DNA of 40,980 nt, taken from positions 1-40,980 of the forward strand of contig JAFAME010000444.1 of assembly GCA_019233695.1 (NCBI GenBank). Reading direction: 5' to 3'. This stretch comes from Methylobacteriaceae bacterium (GTDB taxonomy: Bacteria; Pseudomonadota; Alphaproteobacteria; Rhizobiales; Beijerinckiaceae). The position numbers and the translations under genes are program-made. Under the pieces are notes generated by a model that did no database searches, was not told the origin of the DNA, and saw only the letters and a program-made list of their open reading frames with translations. How positions within the stretch are numbered: position 1 is the stretch's first letter; every line of letters starts with the position of its first letter. Positions 1-35,412 of the stretch are shown here, one piece after another.

Positions 1-1259
1 GGAGGCGGCTGCTCGGGCCGTTCGGTGGCAGCCAACAATACGTTCGCGGTCCTGACCGCAATGGTGCTGCCAACCGTGCTGGCGTCACGCGCGTTGATGA
101 CGAGATTGAGTAACGCATTCTGAAGCTGCGACGTGTCGACGATCGCTCGGTGCGGGGAGCCGGTGACGATGGTGCGCAGCTCGATCGCCTCGCCCAGCGC
201 GCGGCGCAACAAGTCAGAGAAATTGGACACCACTTGGCCGATGTCGACGAGCGCAGGGTTGAGCGGTTGCCGGCGACCGAAGGCGAGGAGTTGCGCCGTG
301 AGCTTGGCGCCGTCCTCGGCCGCGCCCTGTGCTTCCTTCACGAGTTCGCGCTGATCGGGGCGATCGAGGCTCCCCTCAAGCATTTCCAGATTTCCCGTGA
401 TCACCGTGAGCAGATTGTTGAAGTCGTGGGCGATGCCGCCGGTGAGCTGCCCGATCGCCTCCATCTTCTGAGACTGCCGAAGTTCTTCCTCCATCCTCTG
501 CCGACTGGTGAGGTCGCGGATGAAGCCGGTGAAGATGCGCTGGCCGTTGGCGCGCGCCTCGCCGACCGCAAGCTCGATGGGAAACGTCGTTCCGTCCTTG
601 CCGAGGCCAGTGACGACACGGCCATAGCCGATGATACGCGCCTCCCCGGTCTTCAGATATCGATTGAGATAGCCATCGTGTTCATCGCGATAGGGCTCCG
701 GCATGAGCGTTTTGACATTGCAGCCCAGAACCTCCTCGGCCCGGTAGCCGAACAACTGTCCGGCCGCCGCGCTGAACGAGGTGATCTTCCCGCTTTCGTC
801 GATGACGATCATGGCCTCCGGCAGGGTATCGAGAATGGAGCGAAGAAGCGCTTCGCGCGAGGCAAGTTCGGTCTGTGCCCGCTTCAGGTCGGTGATGTCG
901 TTGTTCGTCTGGAGAATTGAAAGAACTTCGCCGTCGCCGGAGAACCGCGCCACCCACAGGCTGGCGATCGAAATCCTCGATCCATTCTTCTTGCAGTGCT
1001 CGAGCTCGCCCTGCCAGCTGCCGGTGCGGCGCAGCTCGGCAACGATCTCGCCACGAGATTGGGGGTACTTGGTCGCAAGCAGATCGTGAATGGACTGGCC
1101 GAGCGCCTCCCGCTTGCTCCAGCCGTAGAGGCGCTCGCAGCCGGTCGTCCAATGCAGGATCCTGCCGTCAATGTCGTGGGTCACGACATTGGCAAGGTCC
1201 AAGACTTGCGCAAGCTCCTCGAAATCGCCGGCGATCCTCGATGGTTTGGGATCCTTCAT
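1..1259 (-). CDS. FixL-like haem-PAS sensor histidine kinase, partial (C-terminus beyond window)
   Basis: Reading leftward from the ATG at 1259, 419 codons are open and run off the left edge. Residues about 15-125 form a PAS domain and 135-250 a second one. The second has the LMPEP motif and the sites that in Bradyrhizobium FixL bind and read haem: H194 (FixL H200), R200 (R206) and R214 (R220). FixL H214 is R208 here. The phospho-acceptor motif is the H-D-F-N-N-L type at H278, and an N-box lies near 385-392. The ATP-binding G boxes are off the window, as would be any fused receiver. It starts 26 bases after the Crp/FixK-type gene, so the two are probably cotranscribed. The haem call is inferred from residue matches; related PAS domains with this histidine are common in alphaproteobacteria and few have been tested. 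Kinase identity is near certain, oxygen sensing likely. Confidence 0.9.
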
Positions 1260-1285: not shown

Positions 1286-2032
1286 TCAGTTTGGCCAGAC
1301 GGCCCGGCGCGCCGGTACGACCCCTCGCGGAACGCCGTCGCGTTCGTCGTCGGCACCCGCAATCTCCCGCAAGGCATCGATCCTGCGCAACGCAATGGTA
1401 TGACGACCGGTCGCCGCGATGAAGCCTCGCCGGCCAAGGCTCGTCATCATCCGCGATACCGTCTCGATCGTCAGTCCCAGGTAGTCGGCGATGTCGAGCC
1501 GGCTCATGGGCAGCTCCAAGGTGCCTCCGCACCCGTTCTTGCGATGCACGGCAAGGAGGAAGCTCGCCACACGCTCCTGCGCGCTCATCCGGCCGAGCAA
1601 GAGCATCTGGTCCTGCGCCGCAGACATCTCATCGCACAGAATGGCGAAGAGCTGAGGCCGCAACAGAGGCGATTCGCCGACCAAGGCAAAGAAACGACTG
1701 CGGGAGAAGCGCCGGACCTTGACGGCGGTTACCGCCTCCGCCGTGAAAAGGTAGCGGCTTTGAAAGGACACTCCGAGCACGTCGCCGGGATAGATGAAGC
1801 CGACGATGGCGCGCCGGCCGTCCGCGAGAATCTTGTAGATGCGCAGCACGCCCGCGAGGACGTCGAAGATATGGCCCGCCTCATCGCCTTCCCAGAATAT
1901 CGCCTCGCCGGCGGCATATGCATCCGTGGGCAGCCCCTTGAAAATGTCCCGAAATGTCGGGGCGCGGTCGACCGGCTCGATCGGCACAATGGCAGCGCCT
2001 CGGGATGGCGAAACCGCGGTCTGGCTATGCAT
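1286..2032 (-). CDS. Crp/Fnr-family regulator, FixK-like
   Basis: A 248-residue regulator with an N-terminal cyclic-nucleotide-type beta barrel (about 30-120), a dimer helix (130-160) and a C-terminal winged helix. The recognition helix reads E190-T-V-S193-R194, the E-x-x-S-R pattern of FNR and FixK, which read TTGAT/ATCAA-type half sites. There is no N-terminal cysteine cluster, so it should not carry an FNR iron-sulphur cluster. This fits FixK-type proteins controlled by a two-component system. I place the start at the ATG at 2032 because AAGAGG lies eight bases upstream; an in-frame ATG at 2065 would add eleven residues. The kinase gene follows 26 bases downstream. It is the natural candidate for the TTG(A/C)-N6-(T/G)CAA boxes in this window, though that link is inference. 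Confidence 0.92.
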   Translation of the reverse strand: MHSQTAVSPSRGAAIVPIEPVDRAPTFRDIFKGLPTDAYAAGEAIFWEGDEAGHIFDVLAGVLRIYKILADGRRAIVGFIYPGDVLGVSFQSRYLFTAEAVTAVKVRRFSRSRFFALVGESPLLRPQLFAILCDEMSAAQDQMLLLGRMSAQERVASFLLAVHRKNGCGGTLELPMSRLDIADYLGLTIETVSRMMTSLGRRGFIAATGRHTIALRRIDALREIAGADDERDGVPRGVVPARRAVWPN

Positions 2033-2183
2033 GGGGGCATCCTCTTGACCTCTGATGCGAGGCATTTGAATGCGGCTGCGTCACCCGCGTATCATTCGCT
2101 TGTGAAATCGGGTGCGGATTTGTAACAACGCGTGACAGCCTTCAGCCAAGCATCGCCCTGCGTGCTGCCGTGCACACCTGTCT

Positions 2184-2921
2184 ATGACCCGACCTGAAGA
2201 CGAGGCTGCCCATATTCTGGTGGTCGACGATGACCCGCGCATCCGCCAGATGCTCACGCGCTATTTCGACAAGGAAGGGTATCGGATCGATGCCGTGGCC
2301 GACGGCACGGCCATGTGGGCGCACCTTGCCGGGAACCGGGTGGACATCGTTCTCCTCGACGTTGTCCTGCCTGGAGAGGACGGCCTGACGCTTGCTCGTC
2401 AGATCCGGGCGCGCTCCGATGTCGGGATCATCATGTTGACCGGCCGCGGCGAGGTGGTGGATCGCGTCGTCGGCCTGGAGGTCGGCGCGGACGATTATAT
2501 TGCCAAGCCCTTCCACCTGCGCGAGGTGCTCGCCCGGGTCAAGAGTGTGCAGCGGCGCCGCAAGCCCTCGCCCGAAACGGCTCCGCAGCCTCAGGCGCCG
2601 GCCGACAAGATCATCCGCTTCGACGGTTGGATTCTCGATGTCGGACGCCGGCAGCTCGTCTCGCCCGACGGCCGAGACGTCCTGCTGACCACCGGCGAGT
2701 TCGATCTCCTTGTGGCGCTGGCAACGCATCCCGGCCGCGTCTTCGATCGCGACACTCTCATGGATCTTACGCGCGGGCGAACCTGGGAGGCGTTCGATCG
2801 GACCATCGATGCCCAGGTCGCTCGGCTCCGTAAAAAAATCGAGCGCGACCCCAAAGCCCCCGCGCTCATCAAATCTGTACGCGGCGTCGGCTATGTCTTT
2901 ACCGGGAAAGCCGATGGATGA
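2184..2921 (+). CDS. OmpR/PhoB-family response regulator
   Basis: A 245-residue two-component response regulator. The receiver domain (about 10-120) has the acidic pair near D15-D17, phospho-acceptor D59 in LLDVVLPG, T86 and K108 (AKPF). A proline- and glutamine-containing linker (about 125-140) leads to a winged-helix DNA-binding domain (about 143-240) of the Trans_reg_C type, ending in the usual R-G-V-G-Y-V-F. It is divergent from the Crp/FixK-type gene with 151 bases between the chosen starts. No kinase is adjacent on the same strand, so its partner could be the kinase at 1-1259 or one elsewhere. Its 3' end overlaps that of the convergent gene at 2899-3435 by 23 bases. Confidence 0.93.
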   Translation: MTRPEDEAAHILVVDDDPRIRQMLTRYFDKEGYRIDAVADGTAMWAHLAGNRVDIVLLDVVLPGEDGLTLARQIRARSDVGIIMLTGRGEVVDRVVGLEVGADDYIAKPFHLREVLARVKSVQRRRKPSPETAPQPQAPADKIIRFDGWILDVGRRQLVSPDGRDVLLTTGEFDLLVALATHPGRVFDRDTLMDLTRGRTWEAFDRTIDAQVARLRKKIERDPKAPALIKSVRGVGYVFTGKADG

Positions 2922-3435
2922 TCGCGGGTGCTCCCTGCATGGACGTGGAGAGGCAATTCGCGATCTGAGCCACGCTCGGCACCGTCGGCAGGAAAATTCC
3001 GTGGTCCGTCCGCAGGATGTCCTCGTCGGCAAGGCGGCGGCTCCAGGTCTCGGCGCTCATCGTCCAGAATCGAACGCCAGAGCAGACGGATCTGTCGCAG
3101 ATCGACTGCAAGAATTGCAGGAGATCCGCCGCGACCCCCTCCGCATCAGCGGCACTTGCCGCGACAAAGACGGGAACGTCGAGCAGACGGCCGTAGACGC
3201 AGTGAGCTCTGACTGAATAGATGCACAGGCCTTTGACATATCTGCATCGATTCATGGCCAGGACGGCCCTTTCCCTCTCGTCCGCAGGTTCCCAGCTGGG
3301 AGCCGGCCCAGAGACGTTCCGGCAAAACCGGCGCCACTCCGAGAGAGTGAGCCCTGGTGCAACCGGGCGCATCAAGGGATAAGCTTGATCCATCAATCTG
3401 GGCGCGATCGGTTCGATGGAGTAGCTCGGCGACAT
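2899..3435 (-). CDS. Hypothetical protein with remote GNAT-like pattern
   Basis: A 178-residue protein from the ATG at 3435; an upstream in-frame ATG at 3531 would overlap the intergenic box. The N-terminus (I-E-P-I-A then L-M-D-Q-A-Y-P-L-M-R-P-V-A-P) and the middle stretch with Y-G-R-L-L-D-V-P-V-F-V resemble the first strand-helix and a core strand of GNAT acetyltransferases. The acetyl-CoA loop is not convincing, so the family is only a suggestion. It contains several cysteines. It is divergent from acetate kinase, sharing 155 bases of intergenic DNA that hold a FixK-type box, and convergent with the response regulator. The function is unknown. Confidence 0.7.
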   Translation of the reverse strand: MSPSYSIEPIAPRLMDQAYPLMRPVAPGLTLSEWRRFCRNVSGPAPSWEPADERERAVLAMNRCRYVKGLCIYSVRAHCVYGRLLDVPVFVAASAADAEGVAADLLQFLQSICDRSVCSGVRFWTMSAETWSRRLADEDILRTDHGIFLPTVPSVAQIANCLSTSMQGAPAIIHRLSR

Positions 3436-3501
3436 GGACGTGCTCGCGGCAGCTGTTGCGGGTGTTCCGCGGACAAACTCGCAGAATTGCCTGTCGGCGC
3501 T

Positions 3502-3515
3502 TTGCGCTAGGTCAA
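3502..3515. promoter_or_regulatory. Candidate FixK-type box upstream of ackA
   Basis: TTGCGCTAGGTCAA fits the FixK2 pattern TTG(A/C)-N6-(T/G)CAA but is less symmetric than classical FNR sites. Its centre is 82 bases before the ackA ATG and 73 before the divergent hypothetical gene, so it could serve either. Medium confidence because the pattern is short. Confidence 0.5.
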
Positions 3516-3590
3516 CCTTCGCGCACCCCACGGCGCTGTGTCCGGCGTGCGCAAGGGCCCGTCGAGGGCAACGTGCGTCGGAGAGGTGAA

Positions 3591-4797: not shown

Positions 4798-4811
4798 TTG
4801 ATCCATATCAA
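4798..4811. promoter_or_regulatory. FixK/FNR box upstream of the triple-BON gene
   Basis: TTGATCCATATCAA is a perfect FNR/FixK palindrome (TTGAT-N4-ATCAA). If activation occurs from -41.5, transcription would start near 4846, 34 bases before the preferred start codon at 4880; CATGAAT at 4834 is a weak -10 candidate. The last base of the box is the first base of an in-frame ATG at 4811, which argues against that ATG as the start. Confidence 0.8.
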
Positions 4812-4879: not shown

Positions 4880-5527
4880 ATGGACGACAAGACTCTGCGG
4901 CAGATGGTGATCGATGAGCTCGATTTCGAACCGAGCGTCGATGCGGCCCACATCGGCGTCGCGGTGGAGAACGGTGTGGTCACACTCTCCGGTCATGTCG
5001 ACACCTATGCCGAGAAGATCGCCGCCGAGCACGCGGCTCAGCGCGTCAAGGGAGTCGGCGGCATCGCGGAGGAGATTGAGGTTCGGCGCCGCGGTTCGCA
5101 TCCGCTCGGCGATGACGAGATCGCCAAGCGGTGCCTGGATGTGCTCGCGTGGGATGCGCTTCTGCCGAAGGACGCCGTCCAGGTCAAAGTCGAGAGGGGC
5201 TTCGTGCAACTTCGCGGCAAGGTGAAATGGCAGTTTCAGCGCGAAGCTGCCGAGAAGAGGGTCCGCAAGCTGACGGGGGTGATCGGGGTCTGCAACCAGG
5301 TCGAGGTCAAGACCGAGGTTCGGGCCGTCTATGTGAAGGAGCGCATCGAGGCGGCGCTACGGCGCAACGCCCTCGTCGAAGCCAATGCCATTCGCGTCCT
5401 CGTCGAGGAGGATCAGGTCACGCTCGAGGGCAAGGTACAGGCTTGGCCGGAGCGAGTCGCTGCGGCGAAGGCCGCCTGGTCCGCGCCTGGTGTCAATTCC
5501 GTCATCGACAATCTCCGGGTCGCCTGA
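4880..5527 (+). CDS. Triple BON-domain protein
   Basis: A 215-residue protein made of three successive BON domains, roughly residues 3-70, 78-145 and 150-215, each with the G-x-V-x-L-x-G-x-V core (for example V-V-T-L-S-G-H-V). There is no signal peptide, so it is predicted cytosolic; many OsmY-type BON proteins are periplasmic. BON domains are thought to bind membranes or hydrophobic ligands in stress responses. The start at 4880 is chosen because AGAAGGAG lies just upstream and because earlier ATGs fall on or near the FixK box. The cytochrome c gene follows about 100 bases later on the same strand. Confidence 0.9.
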   Translation: MDDKTLRQMVIDELDFEPSVDAAHIGVAVENGVVTLSGHVDTYAEKIAAEHAAQRVKGVGGIAEEIEVRRRGSHPLGDDEIAKRCLDVLAWDALLPKDAVQVKVERGFVQLRGKVKWQFQREAAEKRVRKLTGVIGVCNQVEVKTEVRAVYVKERIEAALRRNALVEANAIRVLVEEDQVTLEGKVQAWPERVAAAKAAWSAPGVNSVIDNLRVA

Positions 5528-6763: not shown

Positions 6764-7903
6764 TCAGTACATCGCCGACGAATTGCGCTCGATATCGGCA
6801 CCCGTGACGCGCCCGCGCAGCACCCGATAAACCCAGGCAGTATAGGCGAGCACGATCGGGAGCAGGATTAGCGTTGCTGCCAGCATGATGAGGAGCGTCA
6901 ACCGGCTGGATGAGGCGTCCCACACCGTGAGGCTGACGTTGGGATCGAGCGACGAGGGCAGCAGAAAGGGGAACAGGCTTAGCCCGGCCGTCGCGATCAC
7001 GCCGGCCACCGCAATGCCGCTGGTGACCAGCGCCAGCCCGGCTCGCCGGACCCGCAGCAGCACGAAGGTGAGCCCCGCGCCCGCGAATACGAGGATCGGG
7101 GCGGCAAGCACTATTGGATGAAGACCGTAGTTGCCGAGCCAGGCGGCGGGCATGCGCTCGACGGTCTTCAGCAGCGGATTGGACGGCCCGTCGTGCGGCA
7201 TGACGGTCAGGATGTTGTACCCGCTCATTCCGAGCGCGACCCAGAGCCCGGCGACGGCAAAGAGGGCCATCAGGGCGCAGGCTGCGATCCGTGCAGCAAA
7301 GGCAGCCCGGCCGGCGACCGGCCCATCCGCCTTCAGGGCAAGAAAGGCGCCGCCATGCATCACCAGCATCGCGAGGCTGACGAGACCGCTGAGAAGCGCG
7401 AAAGGATTGAGCAGGCCGAACAGGCTGCCCTCGTAGGTCATCCGCATCGTGTCGTCGAAGCGGAACGGCACTCCCTGAAGGACATTGCCGAACGCGACAC
7501 CGAAAATCAGCGCCGGCACGGCGCCGCCGACGAAGAGCGCCCAGTCCCACACCGAGCGCCAGCGCGGATGATCGATCTTGGAGCGGAACTTGAAGCCGAC
7601 CGGACGCAAGATCAGTGCACAGAGCGCCAGGAACATTGCGAGATAGAAGCCAGAAAAGGCGACACTGTAGAGCGGCGGCCACGCAGCGAAGATCGCGCCG
7701 CCGCCGAGGATCAACCAGACCTGATTGCCTTCCCAGACCGGACCGATCGTATTAATGGCGATGCGTCGCTCTCCATCCGTCTTGGCAACGAACGGCAGAA
7801 GCGCCGCAACGCCGAGGTCAAATCCGTCCGTCACGGCAAAGCCGATGAGCAAAGTTCCAAGCAATGCCCACCAGATGAGCCGCAGGGCTTCATAGTCGAA
7901 CAT
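6764..7903 (-). CDS. cydB: Cytochrome bd ubiquinol oxidase subunit II
   Basis: A 379-residue inner-membrane subunit II of the classical bd quinol oxidase. The N-terminus (L-I-W-W-A-L-L-G, then T-D-G-F-D-L-G) and [10 protein letters not shown] are typical CydB, with about eight to nine membrane helices throughout. CydB supports haem-bearing CydA in reducing oxygen to water with quinol. The length equals that of E. coli CydB (379). It follows cydA by 15 bases and precedes cydX by 12. No cydDC haem/thiol exporter genes are in the window. Confidence 0.97.
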
Positions 7904-7918
7904 GGCGAGATCCTTTGC

Positions 7919-9574
7919 TTATTCCGCCGCGATCGTGATCGGCGAAGGCATCGCTGTCGTGGAAGTCCGCAACTGCTCCATCCCGGGACCAAGCCGGATG
8001 GCCTTCGCCATCAGGTAGACATCGACGATCGCCAGCGCGGAATAGAAGACGATGAAGCCGACGAGCGTGATCAGAACATTGCTTGCCGAGATGCTGGATA
8101 CGGCAAGAAACGTCGGCAGCACGCCTTCGATGACCCACGGCTGTCGGCCGACCTCGGCGACGTACCAGCCGAGCTCGGCGGCGATCCACGGCAGCGGTAG
8201 GCTGCCAAGCGCTATCCAGAGAAAGGTTCGTGCCTGGAGCAACTTGCGTGCTGAAGCCAGATAGAAGGCAACGACAAACATCGCGATGAAGAAGAAGCCG
8301 AGCCCTACCATCACGCGGAAGCTCCAGAACAGCGGCGAAACCGGCGGCACCGTATTCCATGCGGCTTGAGCGATGTCGGCATCGGTCGCATTCACGATGT
8401 CGGGGCGGATCTTCTTGAGAAGAAGAGCGTAACCGAGATCGTCCGCATGCGATTCGAGGTTGATGCGATCGTCAGCATCGGCATTCAAAAGCAGAGTGTA
8501 GTTGGCAACCTTGGTTGCGTAAGTATAGGCATCACGCTTGGCATCCTCGTTTGCCAGCGTGCGCGCCGCACGCAGCTTTTCGAGCGCCCCATAGGCGATG
8601 AGGCCCGACCGGATGCGCTGCTCGGCCCGTGCGACGAGCTCCTTGATTCCGGGCACGCTGGTGTTGATCGACCGGGTCGCGATCAGGCCGAGCACCCAGG
8701 GCACCTCGACCGCATCGTCCGTCTTGTGCGTCTCCTGGTTGGGCAGACCGAAAACCGTGAAGGAGGCCGGCGCCGCCTCGGTGTCCCACATCGCCTCGAT
8801 TGCGGCGATCTTCATCTTCTGATTTTCGCCGGCGGTGTAGCCGCTTTCGTCGCCCAGCACGACGACCGACAGGGCCGCCGCCAGACCGAAGCTTGCCGCG
8901 ACGGTCGCCGAACGCTTGGCAATCTCGACGTGCCGGCCGCGCAACAGGTAGAGCGCGCTTATGGCGAGAACGAAGACGGCGCCCGTCACATAGCCCGCGC
9001 TGACCGTGTGGACAAACTTCGCCTGGGCGACGGGATTGAAGATCACCGCCATGAAGTCGGTCACTTCCATGCGCATCGTGTCGGGATTGAAGCGCGCTCC
9101 GACCGGATGCTGCATCCAGCCGTTGGCGACGAGAATCCACAGAGCCGAGAGATTGGAGCCGAGCGCCACAAGCCAAGTCACAACAAGATGCGCGACCTTG
9201 GAGAGCCTGTCCCACCCGAAGAAGAAGAGGCCGATGAAAGTCGCCTCCAGGAAGAAGGCCATCAGCCCCTCGATGGCAAGCGGGGCGCCGAAGACATCGC
9301 CGACATAATGACTGTAATAGGCCCAGTTCATGCCGAACTGGAATTCCATGGTGATGCCGGTCGCGACGCCCATGGCGAAATTGATGCCGAACAGCACGCC
9401 CCAGAACTTGGTCATGCGGCGCCAGATCTCGCGACCGGTCATGACATAGACGCTTTCCATGATGGCCAGGAGGACCGCAAGACCCAGGGTCAACGGGACG
9501 AAGAGGAAGTGGTACATGGCAGTCAGGCCGAACTGCAGCCGCGAGAGCTGCACGACGTCCAATGCGGCAGTCAT
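7919..9574 (-). CDS. cydA: Cytochrome bd ubiquinol oxidase subunit I, long Q-loop type
   Basis: A 551-residue haem subunit. Axial ligand positions are visible: H22 (high-spin b), H189 and M422 (b558). The Q-loop starts at G-D-E-S-G-Y (241) and is long, about 170 residues, as in E. coli-type CydA (522 residues), with the conserved A-A-I-E-A, F-G-L-P-N-Q and A-T-R-S motifs. Its role is quinol oxidation and high-affinity oxygen reduction, generating proton motive force without pumping. The start at 9574 overlaps the stop of cydP as ATGA, so the two are translationally coupled; open frame further upstream is the shadow of cydP. Confidence 0.97.
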   Translation of the reverse strand: MTAALDVVQLSRLQFGLTAMYHFLFVPLTLGLAVLLAIMESVYVMTGREIWRRMTKFWGVLFGINFAMGVATGITMEFQFGMNWAYYSHYVGDVFGAPLAIEGLMAFFLEATFIGLFFFGWDRLSKVAHLVVTWLVALGSNLSALWILVANGWMQHPVGARFNPDTMRMEVTDFMAVIFNPVAQAKFVHTVSAGYVTGAVFVLAISALYLLRGRHVEIAKRSATVAASFGLAAALSVVVLGDESGYTAGENQKMKIAAIEAMWDTEAAPASFTVFGLPNQETHKTDDAVEVPWVLGLIATRSINTSVPGIKELVARAEQRIRSGLIAYGALEKLRAARTLANEDAKRDAYTYATKVANYTLLLNADADDRINLESHADDLGYALLLKKIRPDIVNATDADIAQAAWNTVPPVSPLFWSFRVMVGLGFFFIAMFVVAFYLASARKLLQARTFLWIALGSLPLPWIAAELGWYVAEVGRQPWVIEGVLPTFLAVSSISASNVLITLVGFIVFYSALAIVDVYLMAKAIRLGPGMEQLRTSTTAMPSPITIAAE

Positions 9575-9756
9575 GGCGATTGGCTCCTGGACTCCGGACT
9601 TGGTTGCATCACGCCGATGAGACGCTGCTGCACGCTCGACGCATCGATCACGGGGCGCTGTCCCGGTCCGAAGATGAAAACGCCGGCGGCGACAACGATC
9701 GCCAGTTTGACGACCACGGCGAGCGTGACCTCGCGAGCAAGCGGATGCTTCCACAT
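9571..9756 (-). CDS. cydP: CydP-like small subunit preceding cydA
   Basis: A 61-residue protein with one N-terminal membrane helix (about 12-30) after M-W-K-H-P-L-A-R-E, then a soluble tail starting F-G-P-G-Q-R-P. Length, helix and position directly before cydA match the small CydP subunit/accessory protein of cytochrome bd. It shares ATGA with cydA. As the first gene of cydP-cydA-cydB-cydX-ybgE, it lies behind two FixK-type boxes. A plain single-helix hypothetical protein is the alternative. Confidence 0.75.
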   Translation of the reverse strand: MWKHPLAREVTLAVVVKLAIVVAAGVFIFGPGQRPVIDASSVQQRLIGVMQPSPESRSQSP

Positions 9757-9790: not shown

Positions 9791-9804
9791 TTGATCTGGA
9801 TCAG
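9791..9804. promoter_or_regulatory. Candidate FixK box proximal to cydP
   Basis: TTGATCTGGATCAG differs from TTGAT-N4-ATCAA only at the last base. Its centre is 41 bases from the cydP ATG, so for the leftward operon it would imply a nearly leaderless transcript or a modulating role. The second box at 9880 is the better-placed activator site. Confidence 0.55.
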
Positions 9805-9879: not shown

Positions 9880-9893
9880 TTGACGAGGATCAA
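9880..9893. promoter_or_regulatory. FixK/FNR box between cyd operon and GNAT gene
   Basis: TTGACGAGGATCAA fits TTGAC-N4-ATCAA and the FixK2 consensus exactly. Activation from -41.5 would start transcription near 9845 leftward (89-base leader to cydP) or near 9928 rightward (GNAT ATG at 10005; TATTCA at 9919 is a possible -10). It may serve both directions. Confidence 0.75.
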
Positions 9894-13967: not shown

Positions 13968-13981
13968 TTGATCCATCTCAA
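13968..13981. promoter_or_regulatory. FixK box between CBS-BON and cytochrome c genes
   Basis: TTGATCCATCTCAA differs at one base from the perfect box at 4798, sharing even the CCAT spacer. Its centre is 83 bases from the CBS-BON start and 76 from the cytochrome start, so it could activate either or both divergent genes. Confidence 0.72.
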
Positions 13982-16270: not shown

Positions 16271-17248
16271 TCAGTGCTCTAACACCAGATCGCGGTTGGT
16301 AATTGCGAGAGCGCCAATGATAATCGACCCCTTCGCGATCAGCTGCATCTCGATCGGGACGTTAAGGAGCCCCAGACCGTTATCGATAATTCCGATGAGC
16401 ATGACGCCCGCGATCGTGAGCGGAATCGCGCCGCTCCCACCGGCGAGGCTGGTACCGCCGAGGACCACGGCGGCGATCACGTCGAGCTCGATGCCCATGC
16501 CATAGGTCGCAGTCGCAGTGTGCACCTGGGAAGACTGAATGAGCCCGGCTAGCCCGGCGCAGCATGAGCACAGGATATACGCGATCGTCTTCACTCTGGC
16601 GACGGTGAGACCACTTAGATGCGCGGCTCTCTCATTGTCCCCGACCGCGGTCACCGACAGCCCGAACCGCGTGCGATACTGAAGGAACGTGAAGAACGCG
16701 GCACCGACCAAGAAAAGCAACACCGAAAACGGGAGTCCGGCAACTGTTCCCGAACCGATGAACAGGAACGCGCGAGGGCCGCGAATAAGGTGCAGGTCCG
16801 GTCCGGCCATCAGCAGTGCGCCGCCGCGCACGATGCTGAGAGTCGCCAACGTCACCACGATCGGCGGCAATTTGAGCCTCGCTACGAGCACGCCGTTGAC
16901 CAAGCCGATCGCTCCGGACAATGCGATGGCCGCAGCCGTCGCTAAGGCCACGCTGTCAGCGGTCTTGTCGAGAACCTCCGCCGCGAGCACACCAGCAACC
17001 GCCAGTACCGGCCCAATGGAAAGGTCGATGCCGCCGGTCATCACGACGAAGGTCATGCCGAACGCCATGATGCCGATGATGGCGACCTGATGCACAATGC
17101 TGATCAGGTTTTCCTGCGAGAGGAAGACGGGCTTGAGGATGGCGAACAGGGCGCCCAGGACCAGTAAAACGGCGGGGAGGGCAGTGCTCGCGTGCAAGGC
17201 TGCCCGCGGGTGCCAAACCAACCAAACCCGCCTCCGCTCGGCGAGCAT
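16271..17248 (-). CDS. Sugar ABC transporter permease (RbsC family)
   Basis: A 325-residue inner-membrane permease of the ribose/xylose/AI-2 type with about nine to ten helices. The family motif G-G-I-D-L-S-I-G-P lies in the first third, and the E-L-D-V-I-A-A-V-V-L-G-G-T-S-L-A-G-G-S-G coupling loop near the end. The ATG at 17248 is chosen: it comes right after the ATPase stop (17250-17252) with GGTGAGTGAG before it; an earlier ATG at 17314 would overlap the ATPase by 65 bases. It is last in the order binding protein, permease, ATPase, permease. Two different permeases imply a heterodimeric channel, as in Lsr or rhamnose systems. Confidence 0.93.
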   Translation of the reverse strand: MLAERRRVWLVWHPRAALHASTALPAVLLVLGALFAILKPVFLSQENLISIVHQVAIIGIMAFGMTFVVMTGGIDLSIGPVLAVAGVLAAEVLDKTADSVALATAAAIALSGAIGLVNGVLVARLKLPPIVVTLATLSIVRGGALLMAGPDLHLIRGPRAFLFIGSGTVAGLPFSVLLFLVGAAFFTFLQYRTRFGLSVTAVGDNERAAHLSGLTVARVKTIAYILCSCCAGLAGLIQSSQVHTATATYGMGIELDVIAAVVLGGTSLAGGSGAIPLTIAGVMLIGIIDNGLGLLNVPIEMQLIAKGSIIIGALAITNRDLVLEH

Positions 17249-17249
17249 C

Positions 17250-18758
17250 TCACTCACCCCCGATGTAGGAGATGAGCTCGGGTTCGGTAAGCCGGACGGT
17301 GTCGTAGATTCCATGCACTTTGCCGGCCCGCATCACCATCACCCGATCGGCAATGGCCATCACTTCCTCGATATCCGAAGAGACGATGAGAATGGCGGCG
17401 CCTTCCTGCTTGAGACTTTTGAGGATGCTGTAGATCTCTGATTTGGCGCCCACGTCGATGCCGACGGTTGGCTCGTCGAGAATGAGAACACGAGTGCCGC
17501 GCTGGAGCCATTTCCCGATCAGCACCTTCTGTTGGTTGCCACCGCTCAGCTTTCCGACCCGATAGCGCGGGCTGGCTGGCTTTATCCCTAGCCGCGAGAT
17601 CTGTTGCATGGTGTGCGCGGCCTTCTTCCGCCGCTGCAGCACACCGTGCCTCGAAACGCTCGCGAGCATCGCCATCACCAGATTGTCTTCGACGCTCATC
17701 TGCAACATTAGACCGTCGTGGTGGCGATCTTCGGGAACGAAAGCGACACCGCGTTCAATGGCGTCACGGGGATTCTTCGGCGCGAAAGCACGTCCGTTGA
17801 GCATCATGCGCCCACTGTCGAGGCGGTCGGCGCCAAAGATGGCCCGCACCAGCTCGGTCCTCTTCGAACCAACCAACCCGGTGATGCAAAGGATCTCGCC
17901 GGCATGGAGGGCGAAGCTGACTTCGTGGAAAACGCCGGCCCTGGTCAGCCCCTCACAAACCAAGCAGGCCTCACCGCGCCGGCTCTCATTTACGTCGCCC
18001 GCCGAATGCGTAGCCACCTCGCGGGCGAGCTTCTCTCCGACGAGCCTTCGGAGCAGTTCCGGTCGATCGATATGGCCAACCGGGCAGGCCGCGACGACCC
18101 GCCCGTCACGGAGGATGGTGACGTCCTGAGCGACTTCGTAGATCTCGTCGAGCACGTGCGAGATGTACAGGATTGCGACCCGGCGCTCTTTCAGCGACTC
18201 GATCGTGCGGAACAGATTCTTCACTTCATGCAAAGAGAGCCATGCGGTCGGCTCGTCCATCAGCAGAACCTTCGCGTCGAGCGACAGCGCCTTAGCGATC
18301 TCCACCTCCTTCTGTTTCACTGTCGGGAGGTCCCCGACTACGGTGTCGAGCGGCAGATCGATCTCATATCCCCCGAGCAGCCGTTCGGCTTGCGCCCGCT
18401 GCTCGCGGGCGTTTACGAGCCCCAGCGCATGGGTCGGCTGCCGTCCCAGGAAGATGTTGTCGAGAACCGTCATCGCCGGGACGAGGTTGGCGTGCTGGTA
18501 GATACAGGCCACCCCCGCCTCGATCATGCGGGCCGGGCTGCCCGGCTCGATGCGATTGCCGCGGATCTCGATCTCCCCGGCATCAGGGCGGACCGCGCCG
18601 GTCAGGATTTTTATGAGCGTGGACTTTCCCGCTCCGTTAGCGCCGACGAGAGCGCGAACCTCGCCGGCCCGGATCGTCAAGTCCGCGTCCGCAAGCGCAA
18701 AGGCGCCCCCATATTTCTTGGTCAGTCCGGTTCCCCTGAGCAGAATCTCGCCGGTCAT
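17250..18758 (-). CDS. Sugar ABC transporter ATPase, double NBD (RbsA family)
   Basis: A 502-residue protein with two ATPase domains. The first has Walker A G-A-N-G-A-G-K-S-T (about 39-47) and Walker B L-L-M-D-E-P-T but a degenerate signature (L-P-T-V-K-Q-K-E). The second has a degenerate Walker A (G-L-V-G-S-K-R-T-E-L) but an intact signature L-S-G-G-N-Q-Q-K and L-I-L-D-E-P-T. This asymmetry is usual in RbsA/MglA-type ATPases. It overlaps the upstream permease by ATGA and abuts the downstream one, so expression is tightly coupled. The substrate cannot be told; ribose-type or deoxy-sugars are plausible. Confidence 0.95.
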   Translation of the reverse strand: MTGEILLRGTGLTKKYGGAFALADADLTIRAGEVRALVGANGAGKSTLIKILTGAVRPDAGEIEIRGNRIEPGSPARMIEAGVACIYQHANLVPAMTVLDNIFLGRQPTHALGLVNAREQRAQAERLLGGYEIDLPLDTVVGDLPTVKQKEVEIAKALSLDAKVLLMDEPTAWLSLHEVKNLFRTIESLKERRVAILYISHVLDEIYEVAQDVTILRDGRVVAACPVGHIDRPELLRRLVGEKLAREVATHSAGDVNESRRGEACLVCEGLTRAGVFHEVSFALHAGEILCITGLVGSKRTELVRAIFGADRLDSGRMMLNGRAFAPKNPRDAIERGVAFVPEDRHHDGLMLQMSVEDNLVMAMLASVSRHGVLQRRKKAAHTMQQISRLGIKPASPRYRVGKLSGGNQQKVLIGKWLQRGTRVLILDEPTVGIDVGAKSEIYSILKSLKQEGAAILIVSSDIEEVMAIADRVMVMRAGKVHGIYDTVRLTEPELISYIGGE

Positions 18759-19729
18759 TGCGACTTGCCAAGGCGAAGTCGGCGACGGCCCAGGAGAACC
18801 CGGTCATAGTACACGGCCCCGAGCAGGATGAGACCGGTGAGCACCGGCTGTGCGTAGGTCGTGATGCCCACGAGGTTGAGGCCGATGAGGATCACGCCAA
18901 GCAGAAATGCGCCGATAACCGGCCCGATCGCATTGCCGGTTCCTCCTTGGAGGCTGGCGCCGCCGACAATCGCAGCCGCGATCGCCGATAGCTCAATCCC
19001 GATGCCCAGATTTTCCTGAGATGTCGTCATGCGGGAAACGAGGATGAGTGCTGCGAGCCCGGCGCAGAATCCGGAGATCGCGTAACAGATGGCCGTGGTC
19101 CGCCCTATCGGTATTCCGGCCAGTCGCGCGGCTTCACGGTTGCCCCCGACGGCGTAGACGTCGCGGCCGAATCTCGTTGCAGCAAGGAGGAGCTGGGAGA
19201 GGCCGGCAACGATCAGGAGGAGGAAGAACGCGTAGGGGAAATGGCCGACATAGTTGTCGAGACCGAGGAGCAAATCGTCGTCGATCGACCGTGTCGCCAG
19301 CTCAGGAAAGAGCTGGCGACCAGAGATGGCGTAAGTCACGCCGCGATAGACGGCCATCGTCGCAAGGGTGGCCACGAAGGGCTGCAGCCGGGCCCCGGTG
19401 ATGAGCACGCCGTTGAAAATGCCGGCGACCACCGAGGTCGCCAGCATAACCGGGATGACGATTGCTCCCGGCAGTCCGAAGATCAAGAAACCGTCGAACC
19501 CGACCATCCCGGCGAGCGCCACGATCGAACCGACGCTGAGGTCGATCCCGCCAAGCAGGATCGGGAACGCCTGTCCTACCGCAAGCACTCCCATATGGGA
19601 GAACCCGACGAGAATGTTTTCGAAATTCTCACCGGTGCGAAAGCTGGGCGACAGCGAACAAAAAATGGCGACTGTGACGATAAAAAAGATGGCGAGCTCC
19701 TTGTTCGGGATTCTCGCCACCGATTTCAT
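18755..19729 (-). CDS. Sugar ABC transporter permease (RbsC family), second type
   Basis: A 324-residue permease with about nine to ten helices, the motif G-G-I-D-L-S-V-G-S and the loop E-L-S-A-I-A-A-A-I-V-G-G-A-S-L-Q-G-G-T-G. It is clearly different from the partner permease at 16271-17248. The ATG at 19729 is chosen because AGGAAACAGG lies upstream; an in-frame ATG at 19765 would add twelve basic residues. Its stop overlaps the ATPase start (ATGA). It follows the binding-protein gene by about 90 bases. Confidence 0.93.
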   Translation of the reverse strand: MKSVARIPNKELAIFFIVTVAIFCSLSPSFRTGENFENILVGFSHMGVLAVGQAFPILLGGIDLSVGSIVALAGMVGFDGFLIFGLPGAIVIPVMLATSVVAGIFNGVLITGARLQPFVATLATMAVYRGVTYAISGRQLFPELATRSIDDDLLLGLDNYVGHFPYAFFLLLIVAGLSQLLLAATRFGRDVYAVGGNREAARLAGIPIGRTTAICYAISGFCAGLAALILVSRMTTSQENLGIGIELSAIAAAIVGGASLQGGTGNAIGPVIGAFLLGVILIGLNLVGITTYAQPVLTGLILLGAVYYDRVLLGRRRLRLGKSQ

Positions 19730-19817
19730 TCGAGCCTGTTTCCTGCGTGCTGAGGTGCGCCGCACTACGAGTGTCGATCGATCGGCGGCCGAGTCGCGCG
19801 AGCTCGCTTTCCGGCCA

Positions 19818-20828
19818 TCACCAGCGCTGGTACGTCTGTATCGTTCCCACCGTCTCCTTCGTAGCGATCACATAAGGCATGAGGAGATGGCCCTGTTCGG
19901 CGAAGGCTGAGGCCTGAACGCCGCCAGTCGCCAGCACAGTCGCCACTGCCGCCGCAAAGCGCCCTTGCTGGAACACGTCCGTATACTGCGTGCCAGCAAG
20001 ATCGCCGGCTTCGATGGCCTCCAGCGCGTCCTTCTCACCATCGTTCCCGAAGATCACAAGCTTGATGCCCTTGGACTTGGCGACGTCCATCGCCCCAAGC
20101 GCCATGGAATCGTTGACCCCGTAGACGCCGCCGAGATCGGGATGGGCGGTCAGGATCGTGCTCAACACGTCTTGGGCCTTCTTGCGATCCCAATCGGCCA
20201 CCTGGTCGGCCACGATCTGTACGTCTGGATGATATTTCTTCATGCCGTCAACGAAACCGTTCGTCCGCTGGTCGCGGATGATAATGCCCGGCGGCGCGTT
20301 CAGGATAGCGACCTTGCCCTTGCCGCCGATCATAGTCCCCATCGCATTGGCGATCTCCATCGCACCAAAGTAATGGTTCATTTCGATGTGGGCGGCGTGC
20401 TTGGCCGTCGAATCGATATTGAGCGTGATCACTGGAATGCCCTTGCGGGCCGCCTTCTTGATCGAAGGCCCGATCCCGACGCTGTCGACGGGTTGAACGA
20501 AAATCACGTTCACGCCGTCATTGATCACGGTGTCCATGAGGCTGATCTGGATGTCGGCCTTGGCCTGGCCGTCAAGTAGTTGAAAACCGAACTTCGGCTG
20601 GATCGAGAGCACGTCCTGGATGCCTTTCGCCCATGCGCTCGAGACGGTGTGCGGCTGGAACTGAATGAACGCCATCTTTATCGGCGCCGGCTCGGCCGCC
20701 CGCGCCGAGCTGGCCAGCGTCCCGGTAAGAGCCGCCCCGCTCGATCCTGCAACAAGCGCTCCCAGTGCCAGGTTTTTCATCACCTCGCGCCGGCTGGTTT
20801 CGTAAGTGTCAGTGGTGCGTGTCCTCAC
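19818..20828 (-). CDS. Sugar-binding protein with Tat-type signal (type I periplasmic)
   Basis: A 336-residue periplasmic binding protein of the ribose/galactose class (Peripla_BP_4). The GTG at 20828, with AGGGAG upstream, is preferred; the frame is open to an ATG at 20930, but that would cross the promoter dyad. The leader contains S-R-R-E-V-M-K, a twin-arginine motif, then a hydrophobic stretch ending in S-A-R-A-A-E, so export by Tat is likely, unusual for this family. The mature part has the two-lobed pattern with Q-P-V-D-S-V-G and G-V-Y-G-V-N-D-S. It is first of the leftward operon. Confidence 0.92.
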   Translation of the reverse strand: MRTRTTDTYETSRREVMKNLALGALVAGSSGAALTGTLASSARAAEPAPIKMAFIQFQPHTVSSAWAKGIQDVLSIQPKFGFQLLDGQAKADIQISLMDTVINDGVNVIFVQPVDSVGIGPSIKKAARKGIPVITLNIDSTAKHAAHIEMNHYFGAMEIANAMGTMIGGKGKVAILNAPPGIIIRDQRTNGFVDGMKKYHPDVQIVADQVADWDRKKAQDVLSTILTAHPDLGGVYGVNDSMALGAMDVAKSKGIKLVIFGNDGEKDALEAIEAGDLAGTQYTDVFQQGRFAAAVATVLATGGVQASAFAEQGHLLMPYVIATKETVGTIQTYQRW

Positions 20829-21006
20829 GTTTCGCTCCCTTGTTGGATCTCTGTCGACGAAACTGTTTGACAGTCGCCTTCGTCCTTTTATATTCAAAAA
20901 AGTGGTTTTTGTATATAGCCTGACAATCACAATTGTAGAAGGTGCAACTCATGCCCGCTGCGGTCTCGACCAGGCGTTCACCCGTCCGGCACGGCGGAAC
21001 GAGCTC
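20829..21006. promoter_or_regulatory. Shared divergent promoter region with operator-like dyad
   Basis: These 178 AT-richer bases separate the two sugar operons. ATATTCAAAAA (20890-20900) and TTTTTGTATAT (20906-20916) form an inverted repeat with 10 of 11 matches around AGTGG. Rightward, TTGACA (20867-20872) with a 16-base spacer and TATATT (20889-20894) make a good sigma-70-type promoter whose -10 lies in the left arm, so a bound repressor would block it. The GntR protein at 26017-26907 is a candidate ligand. No equally good leftward promoter was found. Confidence 0.65.
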
Positions 21007-21765
21007 GTGACGCCGATTCTAGAGGTAGCCGGGCTTCGCAAGAGCTTCGGTCCAGTGGAGGCGCTCCGTGGGGCGGACCTGCAGCTTTACGCCGGAGAAG
21101 TATTGGCCCTCGTTGGCGACAATGGCGCCGGCAAGTCGACATTGATCAAGCACGTCTCGGGGGTTTACCGCCCGGATGCGGGCCAGATGCTGTTGGGCGG
21201 CGAACCTCTCATCCTCAGCTCGCCACGCCACGCGCGCGAGCGCGGAATCGAGACCGTCTATCAGGACCTCGCGCTCGCCGACGATCTCTCCGTCGGCGCC
21301 AACATCTTTCTCGGCCGGGAGCCAGTGCGGCGGCTGCTCGGCATACTTCCCTATGTCGACGATCAGACGATCCGCAGCGAAACCGCGAATCTTCTGGCCA
21401 AGATCCGCACCGAGATTCCGGCCGAAGCGCGGACGGTGGCGCGCCTGTCCGGCGGCCAGCGCCAGGCGGTCGCAATCGCGCGCGCGATCTACTGGCAGGC
21501 CAAGGTGGTGCTCCTCGACGAGCCCACCGCCGCGCTTGCCGTCATGGAGCGCGAACGAGTGATCGGCCACGCTCGTGACCTCGCCGCCCACGGCGTCGGT
21601 GTCATCTACATCGGTCACAACCTTGCCGAGATCCTCAAGGTCGCAGACCGGATCGCCGTCATGTTCCGTGGCCGCACGATTCACGTGACCGCTGCACGGG
21701 ACACGAACCAAGAGACGCTCATCAAGTACATGACGGGTTACAGCGATTCAGCATTGGCAGCCTGA
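21007..21765 (+). CDS. Sugar ABC transporter ATPase, single NBD (FrcA-like)
   Basis: A 252-residue ATPase from the GTG at 21007 (V-T-P-I-L-E-V); open frame upstream to 20806 covers the promoter. Walker A G-D-N-G-A-G-K-S-T at 37-45, Q-loop Q86, signature L-S-G-G-Q-R-Q at 147-153, Walker B ending at D171 with E-P-T-A-A-L, and switch H204. A single domain rather than the RbsA double form is typical of FrcA, the ATPase of rhizobial fructose-type systems. The binding protein and permease follow, giving the set Frc A-B-C. The true sugar is unknown. Confidence 0.94.
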   Translation: MTPILEVAGLRKSFGPVEALRGADLQLYAGEVLALVGDNGAGKSTLIKHVSGVYRPDAGQMLLGGEPLILSSPRHARERGIETVYQDLALADDLSVGANIFLGREPVRRLLGILPYVDDQTIRSETANLLAKIRTEIPAEARTVARLSGGQRQAVAIARAIYWQAKVVLLDEPTAALAVMERERVIGHARDLAAHGVGVIYIGHNLAEILKVADRIAVMFRGRTIHVTAARDTNQETLIKYMTGYSDSALAA

Positions 21766-21791
21766 GCGCTGCACAACATGGGAGGGAAGTG

Positions 21792-22775
21792 ATGCAGTGG
21801 AAGACAATCCTGGCCGCCTCGGTGGCACTATCCACGTTGGTCGGCCTGCACGCGGCCGAGGCCGAAGACAGCATCGCGGTGATCGTGAAGGCGACCACCT
21901 CGGAGTATTGGCAGTGGGTGTTCAAGGGTGCCGAGGATGCCGGAAAGGAGCTCGGCATCAAGATCGACAAGCTCGGGACGCCGAAAGACGACGCCGCCGG
22001 CCAGATTGCGGTGTTGGAGAGTGCCGCCGGGTCCAAGCCTGCGGCGATCGTGATTTCGCCGACCATTTTTGAGGCCCTGGGCGATCCGATCGCCGCCGTC
22101 ACCAAGGCTGGAATTCCAGTGATTGTTATCGATTCCGGCGCCAAGACCGACAAATATTCCTCGTTCCTCACCACCAATAACGAAGCCGGCGGCAAGGCTG
22201 CGGCCGAGGCGCTGGCGGCATGCATCAAGGAACGCACGGGCAAGATGGCCGGCAAGGTCGGCTACATCACTGCCATGGCGGGCCATGAATCGCTCGACTC
22301 GCGCGACAAGGGCTTCGTCGAAGGCATGAAGGCCTACCCTGACATCACAAATGTCGGGAACCGGGTTGCCAACAACGAAGAAGCAGAAGGCATGAACTTT
22401 ACCGCCGACATGCTGACCAAGGATCCGGACCTGGTCGGCATCTTTGCCGACAACGCGCAAATGGGCACCGGCGCCGGCGCCTCGATCAACGAGCAGAAGC
22501 TAGGTTCCAAGTTCTGTCTCGTCGCCTTCGATTCCGATGCTGGCGAGCTCGAGCATCTCAAGGACGGCTCGATTTACGCCCTGATCATCCAGGATCCCTA
22601 CATGATGGGCTTTGGCGGCGTCTGGTACGGCTATGCTGCCGCCCACGGAGTGCGCCTGCCCAAGAACGTCGACACCGGTGTCGGCACGGTCACCAAGGCC
22701 AGCATGGATGATCCCAAGCTCGCCGGCCTGCTCGACGTCAACAAGCGCAAACTCACGCCGTTCCTCGGCAACTGA
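21792..22775 (+). CDS. Sugar-binding periplasmic protein (FrcB-like)
   Basis: A 327-residue type I periplasmic binding protein. The ATG at 21792 follows GGAGGG; a GTG codon directly before it is a second option. A Sec signal peptide ends near H-A-A-E-A. The mature part has the ribose-class features: A-T-T-S-E-Y-W near the start, I-V-I-S-P-T in the middle, and D-N-A-Q-M-G-T-G-A and F-D-S-D-A in the second lobe. It follows the ATPase by 26 bases. A strong hairpin terminator follows before the permease, which would favour excess binding protein. Confidence 0.94.
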   Translation: MQWKTILAASVALSTLVGLHAAEAEDSIAVIVKATTSEYWQWVFKGAEDAGKELGIKIDKLGTPKDDAAGQIAVLESAAGSKPAAIVISPTIFEALGDPIAAVTKAGIPVIVIDSGAKTDKYSSFLTTNNEAGGKAAAEALAACIKERTGKMAGKVGYITAMAGHESLDSRDKGFVEGMKAYPDITNVGNRVANNEEAEGMNFTADMLTKDPDLVGIFADNAQMGTGAGASINEQKLGSKFCLVAFDSDAGELEHLKDGSIYALIIQDPYMMGFGGVWYGYAAAHGVRLPKNVDTGVGTVTKASMDDPKLAGLLDVNKRKLTPFLGN

Positions 22776-22792
22776 GCTCCTCCCCTACTCCA

Positions 22793-22822
22793 GCCGGGAC
22801 GAGCTTCCCGGCCGGCCTTTTT
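22793..22822 (+). terminator. Intra-operon intrinsic terminator or attenuator
   Basis: GCCGGGA (22793-22799) and TCCCGGC (22806-22812) form a perfect 7-bp stem with a 6-base loop; four bases later comes CCTTTTTC. It sits 18 bases after the binding-protein stop and before the permease. Partial termination here would lower permease mRNA relative to binding protein, as in other sugar ABC operons. Confidence 0.7.
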
Positions 22823-22837
22823 CATTGCGGATTTCCG

Positions 22838-23851
22838 ATGACGGAAGAACTCCTTATCCGAACCCGCTCGGGGTCGCGGTTCTTCGCTCGCGGAAGCCGC
22901 GGATCAATGAAAGCTTTGCTGAACCGCCTGCCCATCGAGACTTATGTCGTCGCGTTCACCGTGGCGCTCTGGATCGCGCTGTCGCTGACCGCGCCCAATT
23001 TCCTCTCCCAGAACAACATCAGCAACATGATGCGGCAGACGTCGATCGCGGGCATCGTGGCGATCGGGGTGACGTGCACGATCGTGATCGCCGGTATAGA
23101 TTTGTCGGTCGGATCGGTGGTCGCGTTCTGCGGCGTCGCCTTCGCCCAGATGTGCGGGCATGGTCTTGGGCTTGCCCCCGCCGCTGCCATCACGCTGCTC
23201 GCCGGCCTTACGGTGGGCTTGATCAACGCGGTGGCGATCGGCCGTCTCGGCATTCCAGCCTTCATCGTCACTCTGGCCGGGCTGCAGGTCTATCGAGGAT
23301 TAGCGCTTCTGTTGTCTGGCGGCATGACCGTCGGCGGTCTTCCTCCAGAGGTCAAGGATTTCGCCCGCGGGACGGCGGCACTACCGAATCTATTCTGGAC
23401 GATGCTAGCCGTTGCAATCGTATTCCACTATCTCCTCCGATACACGCGCACCGGGCGCTACATGTATGCCCTGGGCTCGAACGCCGAGGCGGCGCGCCGC
23501 CAGGGCATCAACACCTTCCGCATCACGCTCACCGCCTATGTCATGAGCTCCGGCCTTGCCGCGCTCGGGGGTCTGCTGCTCGTTTCGCGTCTGAGCATTG
23601 CATCGCCGTCGATGGCCAATGCCTATGAGCTGCAGGCGATCGCCGCCGCCGTCGTCGGTGGCGCGAGTCTTTTCGGCGGCAGGGGCACCGTGCTCGGCGC
23701 TGTCGTCGGCGCGATCCTGTTCACTACGATGAGCAATGCCGCCGTCCTCCTCAGTGTCGATCCGTTTTGGGAAATGGTGCTCGAAGGTCTTCTGATCGCG
23801 CTCGTTGTTTACCTCGACAACCTGCAGAAAAGACGCCAGTCCGGCGCGTGA
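22838..23851 (+). CDS. Sugar ABC transporter permease (FrcC-like)
   Basis: A 337-residue inner-membrane permease of the RbsC/FrcC class with about nine to ten helices. Motifs: G-I-D-L-S-V-G-S near residue 85 and E-L-Q-A-I-A-A-A-V-V-G-G-A-S-L-F-G-G-R-G near 270. A later in-frame ATG at 22907 (M-K-A-L-L-N-R-L) would still leave all helices and is a possible start. One permease per operon implies a homodimer. It follows the binding protein across the terminator and precedes the zinc dehydrogenase by 49 bases. Confidence 0.93.
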   Translation: MTEELLIRTRSGSRFFARGSRGSMKALLNRLPIETYVVAFTVALWIALSLTAPNFLSQNNISNMMRQTSIAGIVAIGVTCTIVIAGIDLSVGSVVAFCGVAFAQMCGHGLGLAPAAAITLLAGLTVGLINAVAIGRLGIPAFIVTLAGLQVYRGLALLLSGGMTVGGLPPEVKDFARGTAALPNLFWTMLAVAIVFHYLLRYTRTGRYMYALGSNAEAARRQGINTFRITLTAYVMSSGLAALGGLLLVSRLSIASPSMANAYELQAIAAAVVGGASLFGGRGTVLGAVVGAILFTTMSNAAVLLSVDPFWEMVLEGLLIALVVYLDNLQKRRQSGA

Positions 23852-35402: not shown

Positions 35403-35412
35403 GGGCATCTCC

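Follow-up and report, generated by a model that had tools for sequence, protein, structure and literature searches.

The stretch of DNA analysed here, called the window throughout, spans 40,980 nucleotides and starts with base 1 of contig C12, which belongs to a draft assembly of 5.36 Mb (514 contigs, 96.5% complete, 3.9% contaminated). At its left end lies a minus-strand frame that runs from an ATG at 1259 to base 3 with no stop before the window edge, and the gene is cut by the assembly, since the window starts where the contig does. The C-terminus thus lies outside the window, as an earlier note made from the sequence alone had stated, and reading past the left edge, as that note proposed, reaches only the contig start, with nothing further left on C12. 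The gene and its neighbours comprise the following features:

3..1259, minus strand: very probable hfixL, coding for a hybrid FixL oxygen-sensor kinase of which the N-terminal part, 419 aa, is present (ORF, Pfam, phmmer, alignment)
906..1157, minus strand: PAS-A, the first PAS domain, residues 35-118 (Pfam PAS_3, E 1.1e-6, weaker; haem signature not claimed)
507..848, minus strand: PAS-B, FixL-type predicted haem PAS, residues 138-251, with H194, R200, R208 and R214 (Pfam PAS, alignment, Foldseek)
267..452, minus strand: HisKA, residues 270-331, box H278-DFNNL (Pfam HisKA, E 1.5e-10, alignment)
3..80, minus strand: residues 394-419, off the hFixL consensus (family alignment)
1286..2065, minus strand: fixK-like Crp/Fnr regulator, recognition helix with ETVSR (Pfam; identity)
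2121..2137, no strand: K-box-like site TGTAACAACGCGTGACA between fixK and fxkR, two mismatches to GTTACA-N4-GTTACA
2184..2921, plus strand: fxkR-like OmpR-family response regulator, divergent from fixK (Pfam Response_reg, Trans_reg_C)

Compared with solved structures by phmmer, the fragment matched FixL best (1d06 from S. meliloti, E 1.8e-44, followed by 8js5 from B. japonicum), and the CckA structures 5idj and 5idm were also among its sequence matches. The predicted model of the fragment is of moderate confidence (mean pLDDT 69.6, pTM 0.39), so the geometry between its domains is unsure; PAS-A has a pLDDT of mostly about 90. With Foldseek, the top PDB match of the model was the FixL PAS-PAS dimer 8js5, and the predicted PAS-B fold agreed closely with the FixL haem domain 1xj6 (TMt 0.93, rmsd 1.3). 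The B. japonicum haem-domain chains listed gave TMt values of 0.89-0.93 and rmsd values of 1.2-2.1, and the fit to S. meliloti 1d06 was looser (TMt 0.83, rmsd 4.1). Sequence identity of PAS-B is 60% to 1d06 and 50-55% to the B. japonicum chains listed.

The earlier note had matched H194, R200 and R214 to the FixL haem residues H200, R206 and R220 and had placed a kinase core of the HDFNNL type behind this FixL-type PAS. Alignment with B. japonicum FixL bears out all three residues, and the box H278-DFNNL is also that of hybrid FixL (hFixL). The note had further singled out an R in place of FixL H214, and R208 does stand at that position, but the substitution is not unusual: S. meliloti FixL has it, as do 7/7 FixL and 15/16 hFixL. 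Being the common letter in both families, R at 214 was rejected as a special feature, and so was R206 (R200 here) as a defining haem residue, since only 7 of the 16 hFixL carry R there. The comparison behind these counts drew on 84 collected proteins, from which 79 PAS domains standing directly before the kinase were compared; L024, L026, L032, L051 and L068 were left out because they had no recognised H-box, although L024 does carry the PAS motif. Seven FixL and 56 other proteins were sorted by H-box alone, and the hFixL list was compiled with the motif already known.

When PAS-B was aligned with FixL and with other PAS domains, a check suggested in the earlier note, the His200 and Arg220 pair was present in 7/7 FixL, in none of the 56 other HDFNN-box kinases, which we take to be CckA-like, and in 16/16 hFixL, a count that is partly by choice because this group was defined with the motif in view. 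The window gene also keeps the letters at FixL positions 200, 215, 216, 220 and 236 that are common to all 16 hFixL and all seven FixL. It thus resembles the other HDFNN-box kinases in its HisKA domain and differs from all 56 of those compared in the FixL His-Arg pair of the PAS that precedes it. On these alignments, the His200/Arg220 match of the fragment is not a matter of chance.

The earlier note had contrasted the combination of a FixL-type PAS and an HDFNNL kinase with the core of classical FixL. The mixture is real, but it is not novel: as far as sequence comparison reaches, it is the known build of the hFixL family, already described, with FxkR and FixK adjoining, and the puzzle is settled in that this is the normal construction of hFixL. 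The domain mix is not new because the hFixL proteins of R. etli CFN42 and R. leguminosarum 3841 show the same order, the HDFNNL box and R at 214; by Pfam, both carry two PAS domains, HisKA, HATPase and a receiver. The fragment is 56% identical over 399 aa to the former (encoded on p42f), 58% over 399 aa to hFixL9 of the latter (pRL9) and 64% over 393 aa to the S. meliloti GR4 homologue. Its 11 nearest named relatives (L005-L015) are 52-66% identical, with stop-to-stop frames of 639-784 aa that all end in a receiver-type stretch, and the Rhodospirillaceae MAG L016 is built alike, with HDFNNI as its box. A 1996 paper is said to describe an 'unusual fixL homologue', and papers of 2012 and 2016 reportedly deal with FxkR and with S. 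meliloti, respectively.

The hFixL-FxkR-FixK pathway and its K-box, GTTACA-N4-GTTACA, are described in PMC7888657 and PMC4999443; the former also gives the anaerobox (TTGAT-N4-ATCAA) and reports mutant and reporter evidence for the pathway in R. leguminosarum. The hFixL features found in the fragment and around it are the His/Arg PAS, a preceding PAS, an HDFNNL-type HisKA, FxkR and FixK partners and a K-box-like site upstream of fixK. The locus is like the pathway of R. leguminosarum 3841 and R. etli CFN42 in its PAS-PAS(haem)-HisKA(HDFNNL) order, in R at 214 and the OmpR-type FxkR, in a FixK that lacks an N-terminal Cys cluster, in having fixK directly upstream of hfixL, and in its K-box-like site and anaeroboxes. 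We therefore read the gene as hfixL, a hybrid histidine kinase of the hFixL-FxkR-FixK pathway with PAS-A, a FixL haem PAS-B, an HDFNNL-type HisKA and, as its likely C-terminal part, HATPase and a receiver, and give this reading a probability of about 0.92. Its basis is the N-terminal domain order, the residue and fold match, the gene order, the homology of sensor, FxkR and FixK, and the box sequences.

The fixK-like gene lies 26 bp upstream of hfixL on the same strand, and its product, which has Cys only at 144 and 179 and so lacks an N-terminal Cys cluster, is 52% identical to R. leguminosarum FixK9b, 47% to FixK9a and 43% to R. etli FixKf. With R. leguminosarum FxkR9, the FxkR-like protein shares 62% identity over 237 aa; FxkR is described as OmpR-type in PMC7769827, and deletion of fxkR9 lowered the microaerobic induction of fnrN according to PMC7888657. 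Across the window, matches to the K-box with at most three mismatches numbered 5 against 5.94 in shuffles, which is no excess, so the K-box-like site is argued from its position and recurrence. The palindromic pattern TGTMAC-N5-GTKACA, written after the site had been seen, occurs at a single place in the 5.36 Mb genome, the fixK promoter, with 0.56 occurrences expected from base composition. Of the 11 relatives, 7 have the K-box motif in the fxkR-fixK interval or ahead of fixK and 4 lack its strict form; the motif also recurs in the loci of R. etli, R. leguminosarum and S. meliloti. Among the fixK-bearing HDFNNL loci of the order-wide survey described below, window included, a related motif is found in 5/10 and missing in 5/10.

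The order fxkR-fixK-hfixL is shared by ten of the 11 loci L005-L015, the remaining one, L007, having no fxkR match in its 13.2 kb. It also recurs in four of six longer stretches from hand-picked genomes (L172-L175); L176 and L177 (20 kb each, opened from 24 same-family genomes) hold hFixL, fxkR and fixK in other orders. R. lentis L101, with a sensor 63% identical, has no fxkR match in 13.2 kb and a fixK match more than 5 kb away. Only fixK adjoins hfixL, with fxkR elsewhere, at the R. etli locus and on pRL9 of R. leguminosarum. The single cluster of the window thus resembles the chromosomal copy of R. leguminosarum, which has no K-box, and is unlike the pRL9 arrangement, according to PMC7888657. 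Beside fxkR, at 2899-3531, lies an unnamed protein with 28-34% matches near fxkR or hfixL in L005, L007, L012, L015, L100, L172, L173 and L177, and it is possibly an extra member of the cluster.

The two halves of the sensor appear to have separate histories, as judged from quick trees of PAS-B and of the kinase (the window row being cut at NARDA in the latter). PAS-B of FixL and hFixL forms one group apart from the 56 other kinases (SH-aLRT 100; 99 under a mixture model), inside which hFixL is not one group: FixL rows are nested in hFixL, and L014 and L016 branch first. In the kinase tree, the window falls within a set of 14 hFixL rows (98), and the seven FixL cores form a set of their own (100). 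A branch with support 93 separates hFixL from the other rows, and the attachment point of FixL carries a long-branch warning. In identity, the kinase core of the window scores 29-31% against two FixL and 64-76% against the hFixL members compared. Because the PAS domains of FixL and hFixL group together and the kinase cores apart, the simplest reading appears to be that a single haem PAS was joined to each of two kinase cores, that is, one oxygen sensor on two kinase engines. These trees also bear on whether the gene could come from a FixLJ pair, as a classical FixL with a drifted kinase core. The PAS-B grouping (SH-aLRT 100), with FixL rows nested among hFixL, would suit such an origin, as would the 60% identity of PAS-B to 1d06. 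Against it stand the separate kinase sets, the core identities and, at this locus, the HDFNNL core in place of HELNQP and an OmpR-type neighbour in place of FixJ. When the genome was searched with a FixL query, the best match was the window gene itself (47%, over part of the query) and the next three by E-value reached 25-31%. On tree, identity and partner we rejected a drifted FixL as scarcely credible. Almost as improbable is a FixL-like PAS that holds no haem and serves some other signal on a hybrid kinase: the variation at position 206 would allow it, but the letters at 200, 215, 216, 220 and 236 are kept, the fold matches the FixL haem domain, and fixK and fxkR adjoin. Our literature search, covering titles and the starts of abstracts, returned no haem measurements for hFixL; the hybrid FixL of R. 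etli is reportedly the subject of a paper by Sousa and others.

The fused receiver that the earlier note had called possible can now be called likely, because the 11 closest named relatives end in a receiver-type stretch, because the hFixL of R. etli and R. leguminosarum have a Pfam receiver and because a suitable piece exists in the genome. This best C-terminal piece, C366:8-697, encodes HATPase and a receiver, is 67% identical to L005, and is likely the C-terminus of the window hfixL, judging by homology. Aligned to L005, the C366 piece starts from residue 407 and the window fragment extends up to residue 413, an overlap of 7 residues (about 15 counting the unaligned end of the window), in which the letters differ; the left end of C12 and the start of C366 share no 12-mer. 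All 14 printable family rows (of 15) read NARDAMP, and the last 26 residues of the window diverge directly after NARDA. This stretch, residues 394-419, has no other match in the assembly and is probably a mis-assembled contig-end artefact. The two fragments might instead belong to two different hfixL genes, which the overlap without matching letters or a common 12-mer would favour, as would the two hfixL genes of R. leguminosarum 3841 reported in PMC7888657. We consider this unlikely, since the genome offers no second N-terminus (the next match is 52% identical over residues 248-412 only, the kinase part), the tail leaves the consensus as a mis-joined contig end would, and exact anaeroboxes occur just twice in the genome, once on C12 and once on C366 (C12:4798 and C366:845; 0.82 expected). 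The second of these boxes (C366:845-858) sits between the convergent ends of the hfixL C-terminal piece and a phosphoketolase gene (ends 932), which speaks against the linkage, and no clear target gene was seen for it. A homologue of this phosphoketolase was found near hfixL in none of 21 loci and 6 longer stretches, so joining the contigs through this neighbour is unsupported.

The spread of the module was surveyed in 297 genomes of the window's order with a profile from PAS-B to the H-box. At a cut-off of 1e-60, 61/297 genomes matched, and the best 30 of the 62 matching loci were read, 23 of them with an HDFNNL box and 7 with HELNQP or HEINQP. Among these 23 HDFNNL loci, 22 have a receiver match (that of the window being cut), 22 have the FixL motif by a simple pattern (L153 does not), 15 have an fxkR match of at least 50% identity, and 10, window included, have both PAS-A and fixK matches, under five family codes. 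The code f24 is probably Rhizobiaceae, because the receivers of its loci L144 and L147 are 84-89% identical to R. etli, and the window's own family, f1, is probably not. A set of 40 relatives included no second genome from the window's genus. In a megablast of window positions 1-24900 against plasmids, coverage reached at most 6% among the 15 matches listed of 119 records. HDFNNL kinases with the FixL PAS motif and a close fxkR-like gene, and with no PAS-A match of the window type, occur at L154-L158 and L162; no fixK match was found near them in about 3.5 kb, and they are possibly a second hFixL subtype. Beyond Rhizobiaceae, the module was found in Microvirga, in a Rhodospirillaceae MAG and in Bosea, which belongs to a different family. 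This occurrence contrasts with PMC4999443, where an analysis of 50 genomes placed the origin of the hFixL module in the Rhizobiaceae ancestor.

If the window locus works like the pathway described, haem held by H194 would bind O2 next to R214, and bound O2 would silence the kinase. As O2 falls, the kinase would autophosphorylate at H278 and pass the phosphate to FxkR (2184-2921), perhaps through its own predicted receiver and perhaps directly. Phosphorylated FxkR would then bind the K-box-like site at 2121-2137 and presumably switch the fixK-hfixL operon on, after which FixK would act at TTGAT-N4-ATCAA boxes. Candidate boxes and genes for this last step lie further along the window:

4798..4811, no strand: TTGATCCATATCAA, an exact FixK/FnrN anaerobox, followed after 68 bp by the likely BON start at 4880 (first ATG of the ORF at 4811)
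4880..5527, plus strand: BON-domain protein, candidate FixK target (Pfam BON, 3 stretches)
6764..9574, minus strand: cydAB, cytochrome bd oxidase, candidate FixK target (Pfam PF01654, PF02322)
9791-9804 and 9880-9893, no strand: a pair of anaerobox-like sites, each with a single mismatch, 216 and 305 bp upstream of the ATG at 9574 (minus strand) that likely starts cydA
13968..13981, no strand: anaerobox-like site TTGATCCATCTCAA with a single mismatch, 76 bp upstream of the ATG at 13891 (minus strand) that likely starts the CBS-BON gene

Anaeroboxes with at most one mismatch number 4 in the window against 0.55 expected, and none of 100 shuffles reached 4. From these sites we infer that FixK may control the cydAB, BON and CBS-BON genes. 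The two sites before cydA are far away for an activator, and the one at 9880, which also stands just before the first ATG (9912) of a GNAT ORF on the opposite strand, could serve that gene instead. Besides cydAB, Pfam places acetate kinase, BON, CBS-BON and universal stress genes in the window. Subunit I of cytochrome bd (PF01654) is encoded twice in this one window, in the stretches 6764-9754 and 33990-35408, the first as part of cydAB near the oxygen-sensing cluster, the second beside a TPP enzyme and with LUD/LutB-type genes nearby, and two sugar-type ABC transporter sets (permeases, ATPases and periplasmic binding proteins) lie back to back at 16271-23851.

Searches of this draft genome, which may be incomplete, gave only weak matches below the cut-off for nifH and ccoN and no match for ccoO; in the control genomes, 3/14, 1/14 and 1/14 were above the cut-off for nifH, ccoN and ccoO, respectively. 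Unlike R. leguminosarum and R. etli, the host thus shows no nifH or cbb3 gene above the cut-off and has boxes by cytochrome bd, BON and CBS-BON genes, and the output may for these reasons differ from the symbiotic one. No link of cytochrome bd with hFixL or FxkR was found in our literature search. We therefore offer only tentatively, at rather less than even odds, the suggestion that hFixL-FxkR-FixK here governs a low-oxygen programme outside Rhizobiaceae that does without nitrogen fixation or a cbb3 oxidase and drives cytochrome bd together with BON and CBS-BON proteins, perhaps along with metabolism through acetate kinase and phosphoketolase. If this were true, the module would be an oxygen switch of the Hyphomicrobiales that is older and more widespread and that symbionts later used for nodules.
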